A DNA stretch of 64,000 nt from Burkholderiales bacterium. Its GTDB lineage: Bacteria > Pseudomonadota > Gammaproteobacteria > Burkholderiales > Burkholderiaceae_C. The number at the start of each line of letters is the position of its first letter. Positions within the stretch are counted from its first letter, which is position 1. The position numbers and the translations under genes are program-made. Location of the stretch: NCBI GenBank assembly GCA_016185015.1, contig JACPOI010000036.1, positions 1 to 64,000 of the forward strand, read 5' to 3'. Positions 13,901-25,646 of the stretch are shown one piece after another. Below the pieces are notes generated by a model. It searched no databases. It was given only the letters and a program-made list of their open reading frames with translations, and had not been told where the DNA came from.

Positions 13901-15517
13901 ATGAACCATACAGAATCAAGCTCGTTCACGAGTCCCTCAGGCAGTTCGGCGCAAGGCCTGCTGGGCGACAAGATCATGCTGGCGGCCATCGCCCTGAGCG
14001 CTTTGGCGGCCATCATCCTGGGGTTCAGCTTTGTCGAATCGGGCGTGGCCTGGGGCGCATCGGCCCTGCTGGTGGTGCTGGCCGGCCTGGTCTACGTGAC
14101 AAGCAAGGGCACTCTGACCTCGCGGCTGGCGCTGGCCGTGATCCAGTCCCTTTTTGTGGCCTTGCACATCGACCTGGCGCGCGGCATGACCGAACTCCAC
14201 TTCGGTGTGTTTGTCACGCTGGCGCTGCTGCTGGTCTACCTGGACTGGCGGCCCATCGTGCTGTCGGCGGTGACCTTTGCCGTGCACCACGTTCTGTTCG
14301 ATCGCCTGCAGGCCGCCGGTTTTGGCCTGTACTGCCTGACCCAGCCCAATTTCGGTGTCGTCGTGATCCATGCGGTGTATGTGGTGATCCAGACCGCGCT
14401 GGAGGTGGTGTTGGCCGTGAGCATGGGCCGCACGGCGCGCCAGGGGCTTGAACTCGGGCAACTGGTCGCAGCGGTGGATCGCACGGACGGGATCGCTCTG
14501 GACAGCGTGCATCAGGTGCCGGTCAGCACCCCCGTGGCCCAGACGCTCAAGACGACACTCCAGCGCATGGAGTCCGCGGTGGCGTCCGTTCGGACCTCGG
14601 CCAGCAGCATGGACGTGGCCTGTGCCGAGATTGCCTCCGGCAACCAGGACCTCAGTGCGCGCACCGAGAACCAGGCCAGTGCGCTGGAGGAAACAGCCGC
14701 GTCCATGGAAGAGCTTTCTTCCACGGTGAAGCAGAACGCCGACAACGCCCGTCAGGCCAACCAGTTGGCGCAGAGTGCGTCCACGGTGGCCGTCCAGGGC
14801 GGCGAAGTGGTGGCCCAGGTGGTGGACACCATGAAGGGCATCAATGATTCGAGCAAGAAGATTGCCGACATCATCAGCGTGATCGACGGCATCGCCTTCC
14901 AGACCAATATCCTGGCGCTCAATGCCGCGGTGGAAGCGGCGCGAGCCGGTGAGCAGGGCCGGGGTTTCGCCGTGGTGGCCTCCGAGGTGCGCAGCCTGGC
15001 CGGACGCAGTGCTGACGCCGCCAAGGAGATCAAGACTCTGATCACCGACAGCGTGGGCCGGGTGGAGCAGGGCAGCGCCCTGGTGGACCAGGCGGGCAGC
15101 ACCATGAGCGAAGTGGTGGCCAGCATCCGGCGCGTGACCGACATCATGGGCGAGATCAGCGCGGCCAGCAGCGAGCAGAACAAGGGCGTGTCGCAAGTGG
15201 GTGAAGCCGTCACGCAGATCGACCAGGCCACGCAGCAGAATGCCGCGCTGGTGGAAGAGATGGCGGCAGCGGCCAGCAGCCTCAAGAGCCAGGCCCAGGA
15301 GCTGGTGCAGGCGGTCAGCGTGTTCAAGGTGTCCCAGGGCCAGTCCGCCGCCGTTGCCCCGGCCTCGGCGCCGCGCTACAGCCCGCCCGCAGCCCGTGCG
15401 GTTGCGGCGCCGCGCCGCGTGGCCGCAGCACCGGCACCGGTCGCCCGGCCGGCGCTGGCCCCGGCCGCCAAGCCAGCGGCCACACCGGCGGGTGGCGACG
15501 ACTGGGAGACTTTCTAA
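13901..15517 (+). CDS. MCP with multi-spanning membrane sensor, tandem copy 3
   Basis: A 538-residue MCP. Its first ~180 residues form about six closely spaced membrane helices instead of a periplasmic loop and contain several His residues ([30 protein letters not shown]), so the input is probably sensed in or at the membrane. The signalling domain matches copies 1 and 2, and the protein ends DWETF. The start MNHTESS was preferred to upstream in-frame ATGs because the upstream residues look non-coding. The stop overlaps that of the convergent GGDEF/EAL gene. Confidence 0.88.
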
Positions 15518-18282
15518 GTCGCTGTCCGCAGCAGGCGCTCGATGTCCTGGGCAGGGAGCGGCTGCGAGTACAGGTAACCCTGGGCGGCATCGCAGCCGAA
15601 GGCCTGCAGGCGGCGGCGGATGTCGTCGGTCTCCACGCCTTCGGCGATGGTCTTGAGGTTCAGGCTGCGCGCCATCTGGATGACGGCGCGCACGATGGCC
15701 TCGTCGTCCGGATCGGTGGCCAGGTCGCGCACGAAACTCTGATCGATCTTGAGCTTGTCGATGTCCAGGCGCTTGAGGTAGGACAGGCTGGAGTAGCCGG
15801 TGCCGAAATCGTCGATCGCCAGCTTCACCCCCAGCTGCTTGAGCTGACGCACGCTCGTGAGCACGCTCTCCACGTTCTGCAGCAGGATGGACTCGGTCAG
15901 TTCGAGCTCCAGCAGCTGTGGCGCCAGGCCGGATTCGGCCAGCGCGCGTGACACGGACTGTTCGACATTGCCACGCTTGAACTGGATGGCCGAGAGGTTG
16001 ACCGACATGGTCAGCGCCGGCAGGCCGGCCTGCTGCCACAACATGGCCTGCCCGCAGGCCTGGCGCAGCACCCAGTCGCCGATGGGCACGATCAGGCCGC
16101 TTTCTTCGGCCACGCCGATGAAGCGGCCGGGTGCCACCAGGCCGAGCTCGGGGTGCAACCAGCGGATCAGCGCTTCCACGCCTATCAGGCGCCCGCTGGC
16201 CAGGTCGTATTGGGGTTGGTAGTACAGGACGAACTCCTGCCGCTCCAGCGCACGGCGCAGGCCGTTGCGCATGAGCAGGTGCTCGCCGGCTTCGGCATCC
16301 ATGGTGGGATCGAAGAAATGGTAGGTGTTGCGGCCGGACTCCTTGGAGCGGTACATCGCGAGATCGGCCTTCTTGCGCAGGGTCTCGAAGTCGCGGCCGT
16401 CGTCCGGTGCGAGGGCCACGCCCAGGGAGGCGGAGGAGGCCAGGTCCTGGTTGTCGATCCGCAGGGGTTCCTGCAGCCGTTCCATGATCTTCATGACGAT
16501 GGCCAGGACGACTTCGCTGTCGGGCAGGTCGCGCAGGACCAGCAGGAATTCGTCGCCACCCTGGCGGCTGATGGTGTCGCTGTCGCGCACGCAGCTGCGC
16601 AGGCGGCGCGCCACCTCCTTGAGGAACTCGTCGCCTGCCGCGTGGCCCAGGGTGTCGTTGATGGACTTGAAGTTGTCCAGGTCCAGGTAGACCAGGGCCA
16701 CTTTGCTGTGGCTGCGTTCGGCCTGGGCCATGGCCTGCTCGAAGCGGTCCTGCACCAGCAGGCGGTTGGGCAGGCCGGTCAGGGTGTCGTGGTAGGCCAG
16801 GTACTCGATGCGCTGCTCTGCACTCTGGCGGTCGGTGATGTCCGAGCCGATGCCGCGGTAGCCGGTGAAGACGCCCTGTGCGTCGAACATGGGTACGCCG
16901 CTGACGGAGAAGGTCCGCAGCTCGCCATTCATGGCGCGGACCTGGTAGATGAAGTTGCGGAAGGGTTCGTGGCGGTCGAGCATGGCGCGATGCTCTGCCC
17001 ATTGCGCATCGCTGACACCGACGATGGGCATTTCCCAGCGTGTCCAGCCCAGGTAGGTGTCCACCCCGGTCTTGTCCAAGCCCCGTGACATGAGGCTGAA
17101 GCGGTAGCGGGTGTCCTGCTCCCAGTACCAGTCGGTCGACATTTCCGCCAGGCTGCGAAAGCGTGTCTCGCTTTCCTGCAGGTGCTGGCGCTGCTCGTCC
17201 TGCGCCCGGACCATGGTGTTGAAGGTCTGGACCAGGGCGCCGATTTCGCCGCTGGCGGGCAGCCGGAGCTGACGGGCCTCGCCCTGCTTGTGATGCAGCT
17301 CACGCACATGCTGTGTCAGTGCGCCCAGCGGGGCCAGGACCGTGCGCATGACCAGCCAGATCAGCACCACGACCACCACCGTGCCCGCGGCAATGGCCAG
17401 CAGCAGGAAGTCGCGTGCCTGCTGCAGCGGTTCAGTGGCCTCGTGGACGGGCAGGTTCATGCTGAGGATCCAGGGCACGGTGCTCAGGTGCTTGAAGCTG
17501 CTCACCACCTCTTCGCCGCGCGAGGTCACGGTCGTGTCGCTGCCCTCAAAACCTGCGACAGCGCGATCGACCAGCGGGTTGAGTCCCGGCAGGACGATGG
17601 GCTGGAGGATGCGCTGGGGATTGCGATTGGAGATGAAGATCCGGTCCTTGGTGAACAGCGAAACGTAGCCGGTCTGGCCCAGCTTGAAGTCATTGAGGTC
17701 GGAGAGGAAGTTGCGCCCCAGCAGCTCGATGCTGCCATGCAGGCGGCCGACCATCTCGCCCTGGGTGTTGAACAGGGGCAGCGCCATGGTGATGACCGGC
17801 CGTCCCATGGCCCGCACCGAGGCAAAGGGTTTGGAAATATAGGGCTGGCGGGTTTCGCTCACCACCTTGAAGACTTCCAGGCTGGACACATCCCGCCCGC
17901 GCCGACCGGGCAGGTAGGGGGATTCGGCCACGATGCGGCCCCGCGCATCGATGATCAGGATGCCATTGGTGAAGAACGTCTTCAGGTTGCTCTTCTGGTC
18001 CAGGAAATCCTGTGCCAGCTGCGAGTTTTGCAGGGCCTGTGGCGGCACTTGCGCCGCCACCTGGGTCAACAAGGTCTGGCTCTGGCGTATCTTGTCGTCG
18101 ATGTTGTCGGCCAGGGTGGTCGCCAGGACGAACTGCTCGTGGTACAGGTTCTCGCGAAAACTCTGGTCGAAATGGCGCAGGATCAGCCAGGTCAGCAGGC
18201 TGGCAAAGCCCACGAAGAGCAGCGCAACGGCCAGCACCACGCGGGTCTTGAGGCTGGACTGTCGAAACCGGTTCAGAGGCAT
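15514..18282 (-). CDS. Membrane Cache-HAMP-PAS-GGDEF-EAL protein (c-di-GMP turnover)
   Basis: A 922-residue protein: TM1 about 12-34, a periplasmic double-Cache region to about 285, TM2 about 298-318, HAMP, PAS at about 385-500, then GGDEF with intact GGDEF at 575-579 and an RDSD I-site five residues before it, then EAL (EALIRW, 703-708; ELTES, DDFGTG and EGVET motifs present). Both catalytic domains look active, so it could make or degrade cyclic di-GMP. It lies 34 bp downstream of soxA on the same strand and could be part of that transcript. Confidence 0.92.
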
Positions 18283-18294
18283 GGCCTATATATA

Positions 18295-18308
18295 CCCCGA
18301 TTCCGGGG
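18295..18308. repeat. Short GC hairpin between soxA and the GGDEF/EAL gene
   Basis: Arms CCCCG and CGGGG with a 4-base loop, next to TATATATA at 18287-18294. On the minus strand the hairpin precedes the AT run and the ATG of the GGDEF/EAL gene. It may separate that gene from the sox-like operon or form part of its own promoter. Confidence 0.35.
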
Positions 18309-18316
18309 CTCGGCGC

Positions 18317-19084
18317 TCAGGGCCTGACGCCAGGGGCCTCCAAAGGCATGCCGCGGGCGCGAACTCCGAGGAAAAGTTCCAGCTCCACCAGTTCGGTGGC
18401 GCCCAGCGGCCAGGCCTGGGCGCGCACGCCGCTCAGGCAGTTGCGCAGGCGGCGCTGCAGCGAACCCAGGCCCTGCCATTCGAGCCGGTACTGCGGGTAG
18501 CTGGTGGGATGTCCCTGCGGGATGGTGGTGCCGCCCAGGCGCTGGCCCCAGCGCTGGTCATGGCACTGCGCACAGGACAGGTCGAGCTGGCCCAGGCGTT
18601 GCGCATACAGCTGGCGGCCGCGCTCGATGTGGGGCAACAGCCGTGGGTCTGCCGGCGGCGCAACAGGCAGGCCGCGCGATTGCAGGGCCACCAGGCTTTC
18701 CAGGGCCAGCAGCTCCTCGCTTTCCAGCTTCCAGGGCGTGGCCTGCTGCTGCGACTGCCGGCAGCGGTTGATGCGCTGGGCCAAATTGATGGGCCCCTGC
18801 GTGGGCGGGTCGAAGGCCGGGTAGCGGGTCGCAGCGCCGCGCAGGCTGGCCACCTCGCCGTGGCAGCTGGCGCAGGACTTGTTGCTGGTGCCCGCGCCTT
18901 GTTGCCACAGGCTCGCACCCTGCTGGACCCAGAGCATGGCCGGGTTGCGCGCGTCGTCGCGCTGCATGGCCTGCACGGCCGGCCCCATGAACTCGAAGTC
19001 GGAGCGGCGCTGCGCCTCGGGGATCTGCGCGTGCAGGGTGGGGGCCAGCAGCAGCGCCAACAGCAGGGCGCCGTACCGCTTCAT
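18317..19084 (-). CDS. soxA: SoxA-like dihaem cytochrome c
   Basis: A 255-residue secreted protein (signal peptide ending ...TLHAQ) with two haem-binding motifs, CASCH at 71-75 and CAQCH at 171-175. Cys108 (RINRCRQ) and Cys216 (RLRNCLSG) sit where SoxA proteins have their cysteine haem ligands; Cys216 is at the active-site cysteine position. With SoxX it should form a c-type cytochrome that couples a sulfur substrate to a carrier-protein cysteine. It overlaps soxZ by 4 bp. Because the operon lacks soxB and has an atypical SoxY, this is probably a paralogue of the thiosulfate-pathway SoxA. Confidence 0.88.
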   Translation of the reverse strand: MKRYGALLLALLLAPTLHAQIPEAQRRSDFEFMGPAVQAMQRDDARNPAMLWVQQGASLWQQGAGTSNKSCASCHGEVASLRGAATRYPAFDPPTQGPINLAQRINRCRQSQQQATPWKLESEELLALESLVALQSRGLPVAPPADPRLLPHIERGRQLYAQRLGQLDLSCAQCHDQRWGQRLGGTTIPQGHPTSYPQYRLEWQGLGSLQRRLRNCLSGVRAQAWPLGATELVELELFLGVRARGMPLEAPGVRP

Positions 19085-19404
19085 GCGACGCTGATCGCCA
19101 CGCTCTCGCTGTGACGCAGGCCCTGGTCACCTTCCCAGGTGAAGCGCAGCGTGCCGCTGGCCGTGGCTACGGTGTGAAAGGCGATCAGCGGGTTGGCCGC
19201 GATGGCGGCGGACAGCTCGGCGCTGAACACCAGTTCCTCGTTGTAGTGGCAGCTGAAGCGCTCGATGATGTTGCGCGGCAGGCGCTGGCCGTCGGCGCCG
19301 GGGCGAAAGCCGCTCTCCATCGGGTGGCCGATGATGGTGCTGATCTCGATCACCTCGCCGCGGCGTGCGGTCTTGGGAACCTTGATGAGGGTGCGCACGC
19401 TCAT
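19081..19404 (-). CDS. soxZ: SoxZ-like carrier subunit
   Basis: A 107-residue SoxZ family protein (RTLIKVPKTARRGEVIEIST, then IIGHPMESGFR). SoxZ is the partner of SoxY in the periplasmic SoxYZ carrier. It has no signal peptide, as usual, and would be exported as a complex with SoxY. It overlaps both neighbours by 4 bp (ATGA). Confidence 0.92.
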   Translation of the reverse strand: MSVRTLIKVPKTARRGEVIEISTIIGHPMESGFRPGADGQRLPRNIIERFSCHYNEELVFSAELSAAIAANPLIAFHTVATASGTLRFTWEGDQGLRHSESVAISVA

Positions 19405-19856
19405 TCGATCTCCTCCAGGCAGGCCGCCAGCGTGACGATCACCTCGATCGTGTGCTGCCAGTAGCTGCCATCATTCATGCGCGCCACGGCACTGAGCTTT
19501 TGCGTGGTGGCCAGCCGCATGCGCGTGGACACGCTGGCACGGCCGGCGCGCGGGCCCAGCGTGAAACGCACCACGTCGGGTTGCGGGTTCTTCTGGTTGA
19601 AGACGGCGATGGCCACCACGTGGTCGCTCGCCGTCATGGGGCTGTCCACCTGCACGGCCAGCGGCACGGTGTTGCCGTTGTCCACCAGGGGGGCGATGTC
19701 CAGCTTCACGCGTCCGGTCTGCACCGCAGCGCCGCCGGTCCAGGCACGGATGGCTTCTTCGAGCTGATCGCCCGCGTGGGCCGGGCGCAGCAGCAGCCAG
19801 CCGCCCAGGCCGCAGCCGGTGTGCAGCAACTGGCGACGTGTGGTGACAGGGCGCAT
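19401..19856 (-). CDS. SoxY paralogue with AAC-type arm instead of GGCGG
   Basis: A 151-residue SoxY-fold protein with a secretion signal starting near TTRRQLL (twin-Arg-like). True SoxY ends in a flexible GGCGG arm whose Cys carries the sulfur substrate. This protein ends VTLAACLEEIE: the Cys (146) is kept but Ala-Ala replaces Gly-Gly and an acidic LEEIE tail replaces the terminal Gly-Gly. I recall a named family, SoxY-related AACIE arm protein, for such paralogues. The substrate is unknown. The gene is coupled to soxZ by ATGA and lies 1 bp after soxX. Confidence 0.88.
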   Translation of the reverse strand: MRPVTTRRQLLHTGCGLGGWLLLRPAHAGDQLEEAIRAWTGGAAVQTGRVKLDIAPLVDNGNTVPLAVQVDSPMTASDHVVAIAVFNQKNPQPDVVRFTLGPRAGRASVSTRMRLATTQKLSAVARMNDGSYWQHTIEVIVTLAACLEEIE

Positions 19857-19857
19857 G

Positions 19858-20286
19858 TCAATCCTTCAGCGTGGTGAGATAGGCCACCACGTCCTCGACC
19901 TGCTGGGCGTTCAGGAGGGGCCGGCCTTCCCAGGCGCGGCCCACGCGTGTGAATCCATCGGTCCGGTAGTAGGCCGGCATGATGCTGTCCGGGTTGAGGC
20001 GGCGCGGATCGACCAGGCGCAGCCGCAGTTGCGCTGCGGTCCAGCGCTGGCCGGCGCCAGCCAGATCGGGCGCCAGATTGCCCTGGAAGCGTTCCTCCGG
20101 AATCGGTCCCGCATGGCACAGCAGGCACAGACCGGCCTGGCGGCTGGCGACGATGGCCCGGCCACGCGCGGCATCACCCACGGCGCCTTCCAGCGCTGCC
20201 GGAATGCCGTCGCCCACCACGGTCACGGCACCCGCCCCCAGGGGCAGGGCCAGGGCCGTGGCGGCCGCGAGCCGGCGCAGCATCAT
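19858..20286 (-). CDS. soxX: SoxX-like monohaem cytochrome c
   Basis: A 142-residue secreted cytochrome with signal peptide (LAAATALALPLGAGA), a CLLCH haem motif at 54-58 and a probable Met ligand in DSIMPAYYR. The segment PEERFQGNLAPDLAGAG is characteristic of SoxX. It should pair with SoxA. The ATG overlaps the stop codon of the molybdenum hydroxylase large subunit, and a second ATG follows immediately, so the start could be 20283. Confidence 0.9.
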   Translation of the reverse strand: MMLRRLAAATALALPLGAGAVTVVGDGIPAALEGAVGDAARGRAIVASRQAGLCLLCHAGPIPEERFQGNLAPDLAGAGQRWTAAQLRLRLVDPRRLNPDSIMPAYYRTDGFTRVGRAWEGRPLLNAQQVEDVVAYLTTLKD

Positions 20287-22484
20287 GCGCGCCGCAAGTC
20301 CTGGCTCTTGATCGGCAGGTCGCGGATACGTTTGCCGGTCGCGGCAAAGATGGCGTTGAGCACGGCCGGTGCTGCCACCGCGATGGTGGGCTCGCCCACA
20401 CCGCCCCAGAAGCCGCCCGAGGGCAGCACGATGGTTTCCACCGGCGGCATCTCGGCCAGGCGCATCACGGGGTAGCTGTCGAAGTTCTTCTGCTCGACGG
20501 CGCCGTCCTTGACGGTGATCTCCCCATACAGGGCGGCCGACAGGCCATAGACGAAGGAGCCTTCCACCTGCGCCTCGATCTGCTGCGGGTTGACGGCGTG
20601 GCCCGGGTCGGTGGCTGCCACGATGCGGTGGACCTTGAGCTTGCCTTCGGCGCTGACCGAGACCTCGGCGCAGGCCGCCACATAGCTGCCGAAGCCCATG
20701 GTCTGCGCCAGGCCGCGGAACACGCCGGCCGGGGCCGGTTTGTCCCAGCCCACGCGTTCGGCCACGGCGTTGAGCACGGCCAGGTGCTTGGGGTGCTTGT
20801 CCATGAGCTTGCGGCGCAGGGCCAGCGGGTCCTGGCCGGTGGCGTGCGCGATCTCGTCGATGAAGCACTCGAGGTAGATCGTGTTCTGGTTCAGGTTCAC
20901 GCCGCGCCAGAAGCCGGCCGGCACATGCGGGTTGCGCATGGCGTGGTCGATCAGCAGGTTGGGGAAGCTGTAGCCGATCGAGGCTTCGGGGCCGGAGGGC
21001 GCCAGCCCCTGGTAGACCACCATGTCCTTGCCGTCGCGCATGGACTGCGGCGCCACCGTGGCCAGGATGGACTGGCCCGAGATGCGCATGTGCAGGCCGC
21101 TGATGTTGCCCTGGGCATCCAGACCGGCGGTCAGCTTGGCGCTGGTGATCGGGTGGTAGAAGCAGTGCTGCATGTCCTCTTCGCGCGACCAGATCAGCTT
21201 GATCGGCGTGCCTGGCATGGCCTTGGCCAGCTGCACGGCCTGCGTAACGAAGTCGCTGCGCCCGCGTCGCCCGAAGCCGCCGCCGAGGTAGAGCTTGTAG
21301 ACCTCGCATTGCGCCGGCGGCAGGCCCGCGGCCTCGGCCGCGGCGGCCAGGGCCGCTTCGCCGTTCTGCGTGGGCACCCAGACATCGCAGCGCTCCGGCG
21401 TCCAGCGCGCCGTGGCGTTCATGGGCTCCATGGTTGCGTGGTTCTGGTGGGGGTAGCTGTAGATCGCCTCGATCCGGCGCGGCGCGGCGCTGATGGCCGC
21501 GGCGGCGTCGCCATTGCTGTTGCCCACCGAGGTCGCCGGTACCGACAGATCCAGTCCGCCCTTGACCATGGCCGCGATGTCGGCCTGCGAGATGGCCGCG
21601 TTGGGGCCGTAGTCCCACTCGATCGTCAGTGCGTCCAGCGCGGTCTTGGCCGCCCACCAGGTGGTGGCCACCACGGCCACGGCGCTTTCGCCAACCTTCA
21701 CCACCTTCTTCACGCCGGCGCGTCGCATGACAGGAGCGGCATTGAAGCTCTTGACCTTGCCGCCGAAGACCGGGCAGTCCCGGATGGCGGCGTTGAGCAT
21801 GCCGGGCAGGCGCAGGTCGATGCCGTAGTCCTGTGCACCCGTGGTCTTCTTGAAGGTATCGAGCCGCGCCATGCGCTGGCCGGCGATCTTCCAGGTCGAT
21901 GGGTCCTTGAGCGGCACGCTGGCCGGATCGGGCGGCGTGAGCTGCCCGGCCGCCGCGGCCACCCGGCCGTAGATGGTCTTGCGGCCCGTGGGCGTGTGGG
22001 TGATCACGCCGGCGGCGACGCTGCATTCGGCGACCGGCACGCCCCAGGCGTTGGCCGCGGCCTGCACCAGCATCACGCGCGCGATGGCGCCGCCCTTGCG
22101 CACGTAGTCATGCGATTCGCGGATGCCGCGGCTACCGCCGGTGGAGAAGTTGCCCCAGATGCGCTTGCGCGCCAGGTTCTGGCCCGGCGTGGGGTATTCG
22201 GTGGTCACGCGCGACCAGCTGCATTCCAGTTCCTCGGCCACCAGCTGCGCCAGGCCCGTCAGCGTGCCCTGGCCCATTTCGGAACGCGCGATGCGGATGA
22301 CCACGGTGTCGTCGGGCTTGATCACCACCCAGGCGTTGATCTCGGGTACGTCGGCACGCATCGCACTGGTCTGGGCCTGCGCCAGCGGCACGTGGAAGCC
22401 CACCATCAGGCCGCCGGCGGCAGCACCCGCGCTGGCCAGGAAACCACGGCGCGAGAGTTCGGGGTTCGGCAAAGCGGTGCTCAT
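20283..22484 (-). CDS. Molybdenum hydroxylase large subunit (xanthine dehydrogenase / IorB-like)
   Basis: A 733-residue protein with a Tat signal ([16 protein letters not shown]), so it is exported. It has the features of the IorB-type molybdopterin-binding subunits: [18 protein letters not shown], and the catalytic-Glu motif GGVGEPTIA near the C-terminus. The usual activity is hydroxylation of an aromatic heterocycle or oxidation of an aldehyde. It overlaps the 2Fe-2S subunit gene upstream and soxX downstream by 4 bp each, which ties it to the Sox-like proteins. No FAD subunit is present; electrons probably go to cytochromes. Confidence 0.9.
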
Positions 22485-22984
22485 GTTGCGCTCCCTTCGG
22501 GATGCTGGATGTTCAGCTCGGCCTTGCGGGCGCCGCCGCCGCGCGCCGCGGTGTGGATGGCGGCGCGCACCCGGTTGTAGGTGCCGCAGCGGCAGATGTT
22601 GGTGACGGCCGCATCGATGTCGGCGTCCGTGGGCTGGGGATTGGTCTTGAGCAGGGCGGAGACAGCCATGATCATGCCGCTCTGGCAGAAGCCGCACTGC
22701 GGCACGTCCAGCGTCTGCCAGGCGCGCTGCACCGGGTGCGTGCCATTGCGCGACAGGCCCTCGATGGTCACCACCGTCTGGGTGGCCTTGACGGCGCGCA
22801 GCGGCATCACGCAGCTGCGTACCGCGTTGCCGTCGATGTGCACGGTGCAGGCGCCACACTGCGCGATGCCGCAACCGTATTTGGTGCCCGTGAGGTTGAG
22901 CTGCTCGCGCAGCACCCACAGCAGGGGGGTGTCGGGGGCCGCGTCGAATTCGCGGTCCTTGCCGTTGACGTTGAGTTTCGCCAT
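22481..22984 (-). CDS. 2Fe-2S subunit of the molybdenum hydroxylase (IorA-like)
   Basis: A 167-residue protein with the two iron-sulfur motifs of this family: [15 protein letters not shown] with a fourth Cys (RSC), and CGFCQSGM with CRCGTY. It transfers electrons from the molybdenum centre. The start MAKLNVNGK fits the family; upstream sequence is not conserved-looking. It is the first gene of the six-gene operon, so the promoter should lie in 22985-23094. Confidence 0.92.
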
Positions 22985-23094
22985 CGTATGTCTCCTCGAA
23001 GGTGTGGCGTGCTGGGCCGGGTGATGCCGGACCATGCTGTTTTATATGCCATTTCGCGCCAGCGTGCAGCGCGACGAGGAAGACAAGATGAGAT

Positions 23095-23544
23095 TCAGGC
23101 GGCCTTGATGGCCAGTGTGCGACGGCGGGACTTGCTGGCTACGGGTTTACCCGGAAGCAGATCGGCCAGGGTGTGCGCATCCAGATGCGCCATGAAGCCC
23201 TGGAGCGCGCCGCGCATCACGGTCGTGAGCCGGCACCCGCGTGTGATGGTGCATTCGTTGCCGGGGCCGAAGCACTCGACCAGCTTGAAGTCGCTTTCCA
23301 TGCTGCGCACCACCTTGCCCACGTTGATGGTCTCGGGCGGTGCGGCCAGGCGCATGCCCCCGCCCTTGCCGCGCACGGTCTCGATCCAACCGGCCAGGGC
23401 CAGCTGGTGCGTGATTTTCATCAGATGCGCTTCGGAGATGCCGTGCACCGTGGCGATTTCCGCAATGGTGCACAGGCGGTCGGGCTGCTGCGCCAGGTAC
23501 ATCAGCAGGCGCAGCGCGTAATCGGTCATGCTGGTCAGGCGCAT
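23095..23544 (-). CDS. nsrR: Rrf2-family regulator, probably NsrR (nitric oxide sensor)
   Basis: A 149-residue Rrf2 regulator with an N-terminal winged helix (MRLTSMTDYALRLLMYLAQQ) and three cysteines at 91, 98 and 104 (ECFGPGNEC...TRGC), matching the [2Fe-2S] or [4Fe-4S] ligand pattern of NsrR proteins. NsrR represses NO-detoxification genes and releases DNA when NO attacks the cluster. The neighbours nnrS and a truncated globin, preceded by an NsrR-like operator, support this. IscR is an alternative, but its context and cysteine spacing differ. Confidence 0.8.
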   Translation of the reverse strand: MRLTSMTDYALRLLMYLAQQPDRLCTIAEIATVHGISEAHLMKITHQLALAGWIETVRGKGGGMRLAAPPETINVGKVVRSMESDFKLVECFGPGNECTITRGCRLTTVMRGALQGFMAHLDAHTLADLLPGKPVASKSRRRTLAIKAA

Positions 23545-23571
23545 GGAACACAGTCTTTCTCGTTGTCAGCA

Positions 23572-23584
23572 CGTTCGTCGAACG
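23572..23584. repeat. Small perfect palindrome in the nsrR promoter region
   Basis: CGTTCG and CGAACG flank a single T. It lies 28 bp upstream of the nsrR start, close to a possible -10 hexamer TAGAAT on the minus strand. Possibly an operator, but no known regulator can be named from it. Confidence 0.3.
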
Positions 23585-23647
23585 ATTTCATTCTAGTCGT
23601 CCCATCCGTCGTTATTGGGCGGATGCGGGTTTCGGTGACGCCATGGC

Positions 23648-24877
23648 TCATGTCCGCTGGCCCAGCGTGACCGTGGCCACCTGCGGTTTGTGGTCCGGCC
23701 GCGGGCGGATCATCCACGGAAAGAAGCGCCAGAGATAGAGCGCGAGGGCCGCGATCCAGCACAGGGCTGCGCCCTGCAAGAGCAGCAGCACGGGGCCCGA
23801 CGGGAACAGGCCGGCCAGACGCAGCGCCACAGCGATGACCATCAGCCAGTAGCTGGCCACCATGCTGCGGTCCGTCGCCAGCGGCCGGCCCAGGTGGCCC
23901 AGCGCCGTGCGCGTGACCATGCCGATGATCATCAGCGAGAAGCCGCCCATGGCGATCACGTGCACATGCACCGCATTGCGCAGCGGTGCACCGGCGGCCT
24001 GGGCCGCGGCCACCAGCAGGCCGGCGCCCAGGCCCGCATACCCGGCGTACAGGATCCACAGCAGCGGCCGGCTGCGCACCGCCAGGGGTTTCCAGCCCAA
24101 CAACTGCCACAGTGGAATGGCACCACACACCAGCAAGGCCAGCGCCAGTGGCCACCGCCACTGCAGCAGCACGAACAACACGGCCAGCGCGCCGGCACCC
24201 AGCTGCACCAGACCGCTGCGTTCGTGCATGGGGATCGTCAGGCCCGGCACGGCACGCATGGCAAAGAAGGGGATGACACGCCGCCCCACCAGCAGGGCGA
24301 CGACGGCCATGCACAGCAGGCCGGCGTTGAAGCGCTGCATCAGCAGGGTGTGATCGCCGCCCAGCGCGGCCAGCAGGTACAGCACGTCGGTGATGCCCAG
24401 GGCCAGCAGCAGCAGCGGCACGGCGTAGTTGCGCCGGTTGCGGGTGCCGTAGATCGCGCGTGCCATGGCGGCGGCCGACAGCAGGAAGAACGCCCCCTCG
24501 GCGCCGAAGCCAAGCCAGAACAAGGCGTGGCTGGGGAAGAGCAGACCGATGCGCGCCAGCAGCCAAAGGGCGCAGACGGCCAGCAGCGTGCCCGGTGGCG
24601 TGGGGTTCACGCCGGTCCAGTTGGCGCCGGCCGTCATCAGGAAGCCCACCGCGATGGTGGCGACGAAGCCCCACATCATCTCGTGCGCGTGCCAGGCCAC
24701 CCCACCCAGCGGCCCGTGCAGCCACTGCGGTGCAAAGATCCACAGCGCCACCGCCAGCAGGGCCCAGGTTGTGCCAGCCAGATAGAGCGGGCGAAAGCCC
24801 ATTTCCAGGAAAGCCCGCAGCGAAGGCCGGGGGCGGGCCGATGCGGCCGGTTCGTCGATCTGCAGCAGCGTGCTCAT
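23648..24877 (-). CDS. nnrS: NnrS-family haem-copper membrane protein
   Basis: A 409-residue protein with about 12 membrane helices and NnrS hallmarks: WHAHEMMWGF near residue 62 and HVHVIAMGGFSLMIIGMVTR late in the protein. NnrS proteins contain haem and copper and protect against nitrosative stress. The start MSTLLQI overlaps the stop of the truncated-globin gene by 4 bp, so the two form an operon under the NsrR-like site. A second, diverged copy lies at 56468-57787. Confidence 0.9.
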   Translation of the reverse strand: MSTLLQIDEPAASARPRPSLRAFLEMGFRPLYLAGTTWALLAVALWIFAPQWLHGPLGGVAWHAHEMMWGFVATIAVGFLMTAGANWTGVNPTPPGTLLAVCALWLLARIGLLFPSHALFWLGFGAEGAFFLLSAAAMARAIYGTRNRRNYAVPLLLLALGITDVLYLLAALGGDHTLLMQRFNAGLLCMAVVALLVGRRVIPFFAMRAVPGLTIPMHERSGLVQLGAGALAVLFVLLQWRWPLALALLVCGAIPLWQLLGWKPLAVRSRPLLWILYAGYAGLGAGLLVAAAQAAGAPLRNAVHVHVIAMGGFSLMIIGMVTRTALGHLGRPLATDRSMVASYWLMVIAVALRLAGLFPSGPVLLLLQGAALCWIAALALYLWRFFPWMIRPRPDHKPQVATVTLGQRT

Positions 24878-25284
24878 GGGGTCAGCTCCTGCAGTCCCGT
24901 GGTCGTCTCGGGGGCCGGGTTGGCCAGCTGGTAGCCGTACCACAGGCTGCCGGCGATGCGGTGCGCCAGATGGCTCACCCGTTCCCGCAGGGCTGTGTTG
25001 GGCAGCGTGGCGGCCGTTTCATCAAAGAGCTGCAACCAGTGCTGGAACAGCGCCGCCGTCAGTCCGGGCAGGGCCGCATGCAAGGGCATGGGCGTGCCGT
25101 GAAAACGTCGTGTGCCGCGCAGCGCCGACGACCAGAAATCGCACAGCTTGGCCTCATGCGCGGGCCAGTCATGGATGCGGGCGCTGAAGATGGGGCCCAG
25201 CTGCGCATCGCGGCGCACGCGCGCATAAAAACGCTGCACTAGCGTGGCGATCTCTTCTTCGCTGCACAGTTGCGGGTCGGGCAT
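24874..25284 (-). CDS. Group III truncated haemoglobin
   Basis: A 136-residue globin-like protein (LVQRFYARVRRDAQLGPIF, DFWSSALRGTRRFHG, PMPLHAAL) matching group III truncated haemoglobins. These bind haem, O2 and NO, and are often in NO-stress operons. The gene is first in the operon with nnrS. Its start codon lies only 12 bp from the NsrR-like palindrome, so repression would be direct. Confidence 0.85.
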   Translation of the reverse strand: MPDPQLCSEEEIATLVQRFYARVRRDAQLGPIFSARIHDWPAHEAKLCDFWSSALRGTRRFHGTPMPLHAALPGLTAALFQHWLQLFDETAATLPNTALRERVSHLAHRIAGSLWYGYQLANPAPETTTGLQELTP

Positions 25285-25296
25285 GGCGATCTCTTT

Positions 25297-25319
25297 AAGA
25301 TGTAATATATATATATCTT
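25297..25319. promoter_or_regulatory. NsrR-type operator
   Basis: A 23-bp site beginning AAGATGTA and ending ATATCTT with an AT-rich centre. It matches the NsrR consensus (AAGATGTATTT, one base, AAATACATCTT) at roughly 18 of 22 defined positions. It overlaps the likely -10 region of the truncated-globin gene and lies upstream of an operon typical of the NsrR regulon. Confidence 0.75.
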
Positions 25320-25361
25320 AACGAGAAAGTCTTCCCCCGTCGAACCCTGACGGGCACAGGG

Positions 25362-25646
25362 TCATGTGGGGGCGCTGGCGCGCAGCTGTTGCGCGGCCTT
25401 GTCCAGCCAGAGCTGCAGGCTGTCGAGCAGACCGGCCTGGCTGAACGAGCAGCTTTCCTCGGCGAACAGCGCACTCGACTCCAGGCGGTCGAGCAGGTCC
25501 AGCAGCACCTCGGTGTAGCGCGGCGGCAGGGCATCCAGCAGGGCCTGCTGGGCGCGGGCCTGGCGGCTGAAGTCGGCCGGGCGGATGCTGCTGCGGCGCA
25601 GCGCGTCGAGTCCGTCCTGCAGGGGGGCGAGCAGGGCGTGGGTCAT
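25362..25646 (-). CDS. Small conserved-looking protein of unknown function
   Basis: A 94-residue, mostly helical, soluble product (MTHALLAPLQDGLDALRRSS, PPRYTEVLLDLLDRLESSAL, FAEESCSFSQAGLLDSLQLW). I do not recognise a named family. It overlaps the upstream membrane-protein gene by 4 bp. The AUG at 25646 is supported by that overlap. Confidence 0.65.
   Translation of the reverse strand: MTHALLAPLQDGLDALRRSSIRPADFSRQARAQQALLDALPPRYTEVLLDLLDRLESSALFAEESCSFSQAGLLDSLQLWLDKAAQQLRASAPT

Follow-up and report, generated by a model that had tools for sequence, protein, structure and literature searches.

What does a Sox thiol carrier do in an operon that brings a molybdenum hydroxylase and lacks SoxB? 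The question is raised by six minus-strand genes, IorA-IorB-SoxX-SoxY*-SoxZ-SoxA (SoxY* being the variant carrier), at positions 18317-22984 of a 64-kb window, that is the whole stretch of DNA analysed, from contig JACPOI010000036.1 of a Burkholderiales bacterium (assembly GCA_016185015.1). An earlier note on this DNA had described a molybdenum hydroxylase in one operon with SoxX-SoxY*-SoxZ-SoxA, and the coordinates and families of all six genes agree with it. The five junctions, taken from IorA to SoxA, are ATGA, ATGA, a 1-bp gap, ATGA and ATGA, exactly the four 4-bp overlaps and single 1-bp gap that had been counted. The genes are as follows.

22481..22984, minus strand: IorA-like [2Fe-2S] subunit (Fer2 and Fer2_2)
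20283..22484, minus strand: IorB-like molybdenum-cofactor subunit with a signal resembling those of twin-arginine translocation (Tat) (MoCoBD_1, MoCoBD_2)
19858..20286, minus strand: SoxX-like monoheme cytochrome c (TIGR04485; matches to 2c1d_B and 1h31_B)
19401..19856, minus strand: SoxY* carrier with an AACLEEIE arm and Cys146 (TIGR04487)
19081..19404, minus strand: SoxZ-like carrier subunit (PF08770, TIGR04490)
18317..19084, minus strand: SoxA-like diheme cytochrome c with heme ligand Cys216, Arg200 and Arg212 (TIGR04484)

The arrangement of these genes is more than chance, and the most persistent pairing is that of the molybdenum enzyme with the thiol carrier, SoxXA and flavocytochrome c sulfide dehydrogenase (FCSD) being frequent additions. 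The whole is read here tentatively, with somewhat less than even confidence, as a conserved periplasmic sulfur-carrier system on a paralogous branch of Sox, in which IorAB stands in place of SoxB and SoxCD and would oxidise a carrier-bound substrate.

Gene products and active sites

SoxA (TIGR04484, 218 bits against a cut-off of 110) and SoxX (TIGR04485, 82 against 61) were assigned by curated profiles, as was SoxZ by a narrow pass (TIGR04490, 76.5 against 76). SoxY* is a member of TIGR04487, the 'SoxY-related AACIE arm protein' (206.4 bits against 172), and falls below the cut-off of the true SoxY family TIGR04488 (91 against 125). Its C-terminus reads VTLAACLEEIE, with Cys146 aligned to the arm Cys of SoxY and no GGCGG, as the earlier note had it. 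The best solved relative of SoxY* is 2oxg, that of SoxX is 2c1d_B with 1h31_B also matched, and SoxA is closest to the diheme SoxA 1h31_A (E 6e-43). IorAB has the molybdenum cofactor-binding domains, active-site Glu, separate 2Fe-2S subunit and Tat-like motif (SRRGFLAS, the match from which Tat export is predicted) of an IorAB-type enzyme of the xanthine oxidase (XO) family, and the best solved relative of IorB is 8gy3_C, the large subunit of an aldehyde dehydrogenase (E 9e-80) presumably from Gluconobacter.

Among the aligned relatives, Cys146 of SoxY* is conserved in 87/87 rows, the CxxCH and Met103 of SoxX in 64/64, and both CxxCH motifs, Arg200 and Arg212 of SoxA in 64/64, with Cys216 in 63/64. 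Catalytic Glu698 of IorB (GVGEP) is kept in 106/106 rows and the eight Fe-S cysteines of IorA in 100-101 of 101, solo and rhizobial copies being included in these two sets. Cytochrome electron output, another suggestion of the earlier note, is plausible since the heme ligands of SoxX and SoxA are conserved. In an ungapped stretch of the alignment to 1h31_A, Arg200 and Arg212 precede the Cys by 16 and 4 residues, and by the present alignment they match the places of Arg232 in Rhodovulum sulfidophilum SoxA and Arg119 in TsdA. In the available text of PMC4423706 the corresponding arginines are called invariant and related to thiosulfate, and the mechanism of SoxAX is described as unsettled. The Cys-ligated catalytic heme and thiosulfate-placing arginines of the thiosulfate system are thus both found here. 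Because both hemes, Cys216, Arg200 and Arg212 are kept, SoxAX* probably catalyses conjugation, whether of thiosulfate or of a different anionic sulfur compound.

Conservation in the order Burkholderiales

The TIGR04487 profile was searched against 399 genomes of the order and exceeded its cut-off in 25. The window proteins were then sought by phmmer in 74 regions around matches above and below the cut-off, two regions that held flank only having been left out. All six genes were found in 37/74 regions, with IorAB divergent from SoxXYZA in three (L093-L095). A short form, IorB with SoxYZ and without SoxX or SoxA, accounted for 21/74; three regions were partial (L075 and L087 stop before soxA, L100 is without SoxX), four held other SoxYZ and one a canonical cluster with SoxB. 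The IorB of L082 (G012, contig C11) carries one in-frame TAG, either a broken gene or a sequencing error.

The tails of the short forms were AACLEEL in L044-L046, L048 and L050 and varied in the remainder. The AACLEEL short form stands beside a separate SoxXYZA set in G131, G169, G263 and G349, and in G322 it is accompanied by a second, full operon (L125). The stand-alone SoxXYZA of G131 and G263 (L122, L124) lies a few kb from SoxC- and SoxD-like genes. As the short forms have SoxYZ but no SoxXA, the evidence favours the carrier over the cytochromes as the partner of IorAB.

At the level of whole genomes, SoxY* was scored at a TIGR04487 E value up to 2e-28, minus G300, in which the match lies ~2 kb from SoxB; being defined by score, the class takes in short forms without AACxE-like tails and genomes with unread tails (e.g. 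G075, G114, G368, G386, G393). Membership of the IorB clade was set at about 646 bits or more, at most two candidates being scored per genome, which omits G045 (645 bits) and G313 (626), both outside the clade in the tree, and G245, in which a probable member is cut to a 595-bit fragment by the end of its contig. Thus defined, SoxY* occurs in 68 of the 399 genomes, clade IorB in 74 and both in 66, so that clade IorB accompanies SoxY* in 66/68 genomes (the exceptions are G382 and G368) vs 8/331 others. A caveat that applies to all the counts given here is that they share phylogeny, and Fisher p values serve only as a rough guide.

The 41 genomes counted as full-form span 17 genera; four of them are incomplete, namely G210 and G330 (contig cut off ahead of soxA), G242 (IorB on a different contig) and G357 (region not fetched, placed by genus), and in three IorAB is divergent (G002, G137, G175). 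The view that the six genes act together is borne out by an arrangement kept over many genera, by its survival of the divergence of IorAB and by the near-constant company of SoxY* and IorB.

Arm type and partner genes

Neighbours within 8 kb were tabulated for 109 SoxY rows, in which genera overlap and some genomes contribute two loci. The AACxE-like class is a pattern defined by the authors and includes L199 and L200 (AACVIG), which are without the acidic residue. Among rows with an AACxE-like arm IorB was present in 68/76 and SoxB in 0/76, whereas GGCGG rows had IorB in 0/16 and SoxB in 14/16; rows with other tails had IorB in 12/17 and SoxB in 0/17. The co-occurrence of IorB with AACxE-type SoxY, for which the earlier note had suggested a genome search, is seen across loci (68/76), and that of clade IorB with SoxY* as defined by score is seen across genomes (66/68).

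A similar partition was found in a phylum-wide sample of 299 genomes, of which 34 gave a match at E up to 1e-25; 20 of the 32 new match places, mainly the better-scoring, were read. IorA, IorB, FccB, SoxX, SoxY, SoxZ and SoxA were all present at the AAC-tailed loci (9/9), while GGCGG loci had SoxB in 10/11 and IorAB in 0/11. The modified arm marks a system distinct from thiosulfate Sox, because the AACxE-like SoxY is never near SoxB.

Further tails were met in these comparisons. L097-L099 hold SoxYZ with SGCGM tails and two FCSD-like flavoproteins each (domain-checked in L097 only), with no IorAB found, and this SoxY variant is a possible further carrier system. SoxYZ with NGC-type tails lies beside a cytochrome c and FCSD in L163 (5992-8433, pSymA of Sinorhizobium meliloti) and in L164, with no SoxXA, SoxB or IorAB found nearby.

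The canonical Sox system of the same genome

The source assembly (4.02 Mb, 95.8% complete, 4.58% contaminated) has as its nearest named relative found Curvibacter sp. PAE-UM, with 93% identity in SoxY* and 95% in IorB. Its contig C25 carries soxC, soxD, soxY (TLGGCGG), soxZ, soxA, soxX and soxB consecutively, SoxB (854 bits) and SoxZ by profile and SoxC, SoxD, SoxA and SoxX as read by eye from the sequences. The sole SoxB found in the genome is this one, alongside its own SoxY. The tetranucleotide correlation of C25 with the window is 0.967, as against 0.987-0.991 for three other contigs of the genome and 0.69-0.93 for six loci of other genomes, and contamination is unlikely as an explanation of the C25 cluster because its composition resembles the window. 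The operon is thus a second Sox set, separate from a complete canonical one, and the absence of SoxB and SoxCD claimed in the earlier note holds for the operon but not for the genome.

SoxB was found in 188/399 genomes of the order, 50/68 of those with SoxY* vs 138/331 others. It is present in 30 of the 41 full-form genomes and absent from 11 (G005, G012, G060, G100, G140, G181, G210, G242, G272, G330 and G357), seven of which belong to genus f13/g22, three to f6/g15 and one, G210, to f10; G055, a g15 genome without SoxY*, does carry SoxB. All six genes were seen in 7 of these 11, the other four being the incomplete genomes. Dependence on SoxB in trans was considered as a general rule and rejected on this absence from 11/41. 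G354 has a canonical sox cluster ~10 kb away from the operon. The system often coexists with canonical Sox and does not seem to need SoxB.

These counts bear on the idea that IorAB replaces SoxCD as a sulfane dehydrogenase, oxidising the sulfur of SoxY* and not carbon, with SoxB in trans or another hydrolase freeing sulfate. The conserved thiosulfate-tied residues of SoxAX, the fact that SoxCD is likewise a molybdenum enzyme and the enrichment of SoxB in SoxY* genomes speak for it, but oxidation of persulfide sulfur is not known to us from any XO-family enzyme, the genome already has a canonical soxCD, and SoxB is missing from over a quarter of full-form genomes and from the surroundings of every AACxE-like locus. 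It is judged quite unlikely.

FCSD and the link to sulfur metabolism

On a plasmid of Methylobacterium sp. NMS14P the 2Fe-2S and molybdenum subunits are followed in the same gene set by a cytochrome c, a flavin adenine dinucleotide (FAD) oxidoreductase, SoxX, an AACIE SoxY, SoxZ and SoxA. The operon is also found on annotated plasmid records of Roseomonas marmotae and Neorhizobium galegae, the molybdenum subunit gene of the latter being missing from the record's table and found in two frames. The FAD protein is FCSD, with PF21706 in 7/7 and PF09242 in 6/7 of the proteins tested for domains (L160, L162, L163, L043, L042 and two of L097), other loci being assigned by similarity.

The Alphaproteobacteria examined have FCSD inside the operon; in Burkholderiales it mostly lies at other places of the genome, but at two loci (L043, L042) it was found within or right after the operon. 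The window operon has none; the FCSD of its genome is on contig C60 (G000:C60:33301), adjoining a SoxH-like hydrolase and a TsuA/YeeE-like transporter (both matches below cut-offs) and a gene of ArsR type by eye. FCSD is present in 39/41 full-form genomes vs 28/80 others (Fisher p 3e-11, uncorrected for phylogeny, with FCSD clustered by lineage), the control being 80 of the 323 genomes outside both sets, hand-picked from a random list of 150 and including G245. Of the SoxB-less full-form genomes 10/11 have it. Since the alphaproteobacterial versions add FCSD, the system belongs to sulfur metabolism.

The same observation counts against a thiohemiacetal route, in which Cys146 of SoxY* would trap a toxic aldehyde such as formaldehyde, IorAB would make the thioester and SoxXA would be the electron exit. 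IorAB-like enzymes of known substrate are aldehyde or hemiacetal dehydrogenases, the nearest solved relative of IorB is an aldehyde dehydrogenase, and spontaneous capture would need no SoxXA, in keeping with the short forms. However, the route leaves both an FCSD in the operon and a sulfur-type SoxAX active site unexplained, and it has only a slim chance of being right.

Diversity of IorB and solo copies

A tree of 109 IorB rows placed 92 in one clade (SH-aLRT 100), to which the IorB of the window belongs and which lies apart from the other IorB paralogs of its own genome. The clade is made up of 58 Sox-linked rows (one from an alphaproteobacterial metagenome-assembled genome, the rest from the order), 12 linked rows from alphaproteobacterial plasmids and the phylum sample, 17 solo Burkholderiales rows and five rhizobial or methanotroph rows, the last two groups not being linked to Sox genes. 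The rows outside it were 15 paralogs, a single solo copy and a single linked copy (L126). The tree omits mostly near-duplicates, together with L113 and the solo L146, earlier placed outside the clade, and the characterised deoxyribose and vanillin dehydrogenases are absent from it. The mixture of alpha- and betaproteobacterial rows suggests transfer between the groups. Since the solo and rhizobial rows nest inside the clade, some copies have probably lost their Sox neighbours or served in trans.

In a first tree, 55 linked rows formed one clade against 20 paralogs, and a Sox-linked IorB exclusive to Sox loci was entertained. This was dropped when, in a second tree that omits four long-branched paralogs (L114, L118, L120, L121), 20 added regions put 17 solo copies inside the clade; these regions were chosen mostly for having no close TIGR04487 match and 19 were without a SoxY found, so the 17 is not a rate.

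Three loci outside the usual pattern were noted in passing. L126 (G143, contig C51) is an extra SoxYZ-linked IorAB in a genome with several, possibly a separate recruitment. At L153 (G002, contig C6) a solo clade IorAB is followed by two small membrane proteins, by eye like a split YeeE/YedE sulfur importer, and at L140 (G248, contig C8) another precedes genes that by eye resemble SelA and SelB, a formate-dehydrogenase-type subunit (likewise by eye) lying upstream.

In three annotated Sinorhizobium records, close relatives of IorAB (65-66% identical) stand next to a single c-type cytochrome, and the genes listed around them include no Sox gene; in Methylosinus a multiheme cytochrome lies beside IorAB. 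The Sinorhizobium records suit the view that two modules merely share an operon, IorAB oxidising a free organic substrate with SoxXA as its cytochrome and SoxYZ* as a bystander. This would predict the reverse of the short forms, which keep SoxYZ and drop SoxXA, and it sits badly with an arm-type partition that is near perfect; it is regarded as distinctly improbable.

The chief rival to a carrier of substrate is that SoxYZ* is an accessory which supplies or repairs the sulfido ligand of the molybdenum in IorAB, a periplasmic counterpart of the cytoplasmic XdhC, its sulfane sulfur coming from thiosulfate via SoxAX or from sulfide via FCSD. Enzymes of the XO family require a sulfido ligand for activity. 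XdhC genes adjoin both unlinked IorB paralogs examined in the own genome (L105, L119) and were found in 2/4 of the three Sinorhizobium and one Methylosinus records, but the window yielded none, and L199 and L200 are the sole Sox-linked loci in which one was found. The minimal IorAB-SoxYZ sets would suit a carrier with one client, and a SoxYZ-like protein linked to pyrroloquinoline quinone (PQQ) alcohol dehydrogenases is suspected, in the available text of PMC12997753, of a role in maturation or redox control. Against this, solo clade IorAB (L139-L144, L147-L157) occurs with neither SoxYZ nor XdhC found nearby, and a set of two cytochromes plus FCSD is costly for a single ligand. Sulfuration of the molybdenum cofactor is, moreover, normally complete before Tat export. 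On balance this role is considered unlikely.

Proposed mechanism

For the favoured reading, in which IorAB acts on a substrate held by SoxY*, a scheme of catalytic steps, substrate and docking can be proposed from the gene set, linkage, co-occurrence, arm-type partition and active-site residues observed. SoxAX would first couple thiosulfate or an organic thiol, as the anionic sulfur compound, oxidatively to Cys146 of SoxY*. IorAB would then dock the modified arm and oxidise the carrier-bound substrate at the carbon adjoining sulfur or as an aldehyde/thiohemiacetal adduct, electrons passing via IorA to a cytochrome (SoxX/SoxA or another c-type). The SoxY*-persulfide or sulfide left over might be cleared by FCSD, and by canonical Sox enzymes where these are present. 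From the chemistry of the XO family, attack would be expected at a sulfur-bound carbon or on an aldehyde adduct.

A more specific version is an organosulfur pathway, in which SoxAX couples an organic thiol to SoxY*, IorAB cleaves the C-S bond by hydroxylating the adjoining carbon, and the sulfur that remains is oxidised by FCSD. To our knowledge no XO-family enzyme acts on a substrate carried by a protein thiol, and such a pathway would be the first; it is possible but doubtful.

Several observations weigh against a carrier-bound substrate for IorAB. SoxXYZA without IorB was found in 8/74 regions of the order (L085, which ends at a contig edge, L056, L064, L068, L096 and L122-L124), clade IorB being elsewhere in 7/8 of these genomes (6/7 excluding L085) and lacking in G382. 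Conversely, the enzyme does not always need a carrier nearby, since clade IorB occurs without SoxYZ close by in the solo, rhizobial and methanotroph rows of the tree. The enrichment of SoxB in SoxY* genomes makes some link to the canonical pathway possible, and the thiosulfate-type arginines of SoxA are no less compatible with inorganic thiosulfate than with an organic thiol. Lastly, the IorAB-like enzymes of known substrate described in the available text of PMC6365646 have free aldehydes as substrates and a cytochrome c as partner.

Neighbouring genes and transcription

Two features lie directly upstream of IorA.

22985..23094, minus strand: intergenic leader from the Rrf2-type regulator gene to IorA, putative promoter region
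23095..23544, minus strand: Rrf2/NsrR-like regulator (TIGR00738, 117 bits; below the cut-off of the NsrR equivalog)

The promoter in the leader is putative, since a search for sigma-70 consensus promoters across 18200-25600 gave no match. No terminator-like site was found within the operon on its own strand, and with the gene overlaps and 1-bp gap this makes it likely that the six genes are on one transcript. The Rrf2/NsrR-like regulator, NnrS and a truncated-haemoglobin-like gene are consecutive at 23095-25284, likely a nitric-oxide module directly upstream, and in Curvibacter sp. PAE-UM (L076) the operon is likewise preceded by these three genes. Regulation of the operon by nitric oxide was considered and set aside: these genes are treated as mere neighbours because they were found again in L076 and in none of the other loci compared. 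Downstream, a 922-residue protein that is GGDEF/EAL-like by eye (15514-18282, same strand) begins ~35 bases past soxA; such a gene follows the operon also in L076 and L077 and may be co-transcribed.

Relation to known systems and significance

The window operon resembles the Sox thiosulfate system in that SoxX, SoxZ and SoxA pass the curated cut-offs, SoxY* is homologous and has the carrier Cys, and the hemes and catalytic residues of SoxA are kept. It differs in having IorAB, no SoxB or SoxCD and an AACxE-like arm, and two defining features of the thiosulfate system, a GGCGG arm and SoxB alongside the carrier, were looked for and are absent. SoxY* belongs to TIGR04487 (SoxY_para_1), a family that in the sources consulted amounts to a name for the carrier; what is added here is its partners, IorAB and FCSD.

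IorAB-like enzymes with cytochrome c oxidise deoxyribose and vanillin (PMC6365646, available text). The window enzyme shares with the IorAB-type dehydrogenases for deoxyribose (Pseudomonas simiae), vanillin (P. putida) and aldehyde (8gy3) a 2Fe-2S and a molybdenum subunit, a Tat-like signal, an operon without an FAD subunit and cytochrome c output, but has SoxXYZA instead of a dedicated cytochrome c. An enzyme of this type does not by itself imply N-heterocycle substrates. The quinoprotein-associated SoxYZ-like carrier TIGR04557 (P. putida PP_2677) is alike in being a SoxYZ-type thiol carrier tied to a periplasmic dehydrogenase of organic substrates, but it is a fused SoxYZ with PQQ enzymes, SoxH and rhodanese, whereas the window genes are separate and neighbour a molybdenum enzyme; its cut-off is 140 bits, of which SoxZ of the window reaches 38 and SoxY* 52.

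Parts of the system have been seen before. A third SOX cluster of four genes (Pnuc_1154-1157) in Polynucleobacter asymbioticus QLW-P1DMWA-1, one of the planktonic Burkholderiaceae, is presented only as SOX genes in the available text of PMC3308952, which there makes no mention of a linkage to IorAB; we infer that it is an instance of the present system. Bradyrhizobium diazoefficiens has two soxY, only soxY1 being essential for thiosulfate oxidation (PMC5748708, available text), and soxY2 would, from loci L191-L196 of one genus, be of AACIE type. In the portions available, PMC11237559 excludes SoxY lacking GGC before analysis, and PMC2907700 and PMC4782131 name both IorAB and Sox gene kinds, not together. 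No description of the IorAB-SoxYZ pairing was found in the literature searched, in which coverage of subscription journals is thin. The statement in the earlier note that this combination has no characterised function stands within that literature, with the qualification that the carrier subfamily has a name in NCBIfam and that an extra SOX cluster is on record in PMC3308952. The pairing is what is new here; the name of the carrier subfamily, TIGR04487, was already known.

The carrier family is found in ~1 in 6 genomes of the order (68/399, by score threshold) and in Alphaproteobacteria, including the Neorhizobium plasmid record. Annotation labels some of its proteins as SoxY or SoxZ of thiosulfate oxidation (e.g. 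L162, L160), and surveys may wrongly credit their hosts with thiosulfate oxidation; the arm motif is a simple discriminator between both Sox systems. If SoxY* services the molybdenum centre, this would be a new kind of periplasmic cofactor maintenance. If instead it carries the substrate of IorAB, the Sox carrier principle would reach a second molybdenum family, probably in carbon-sulfur chemistry.

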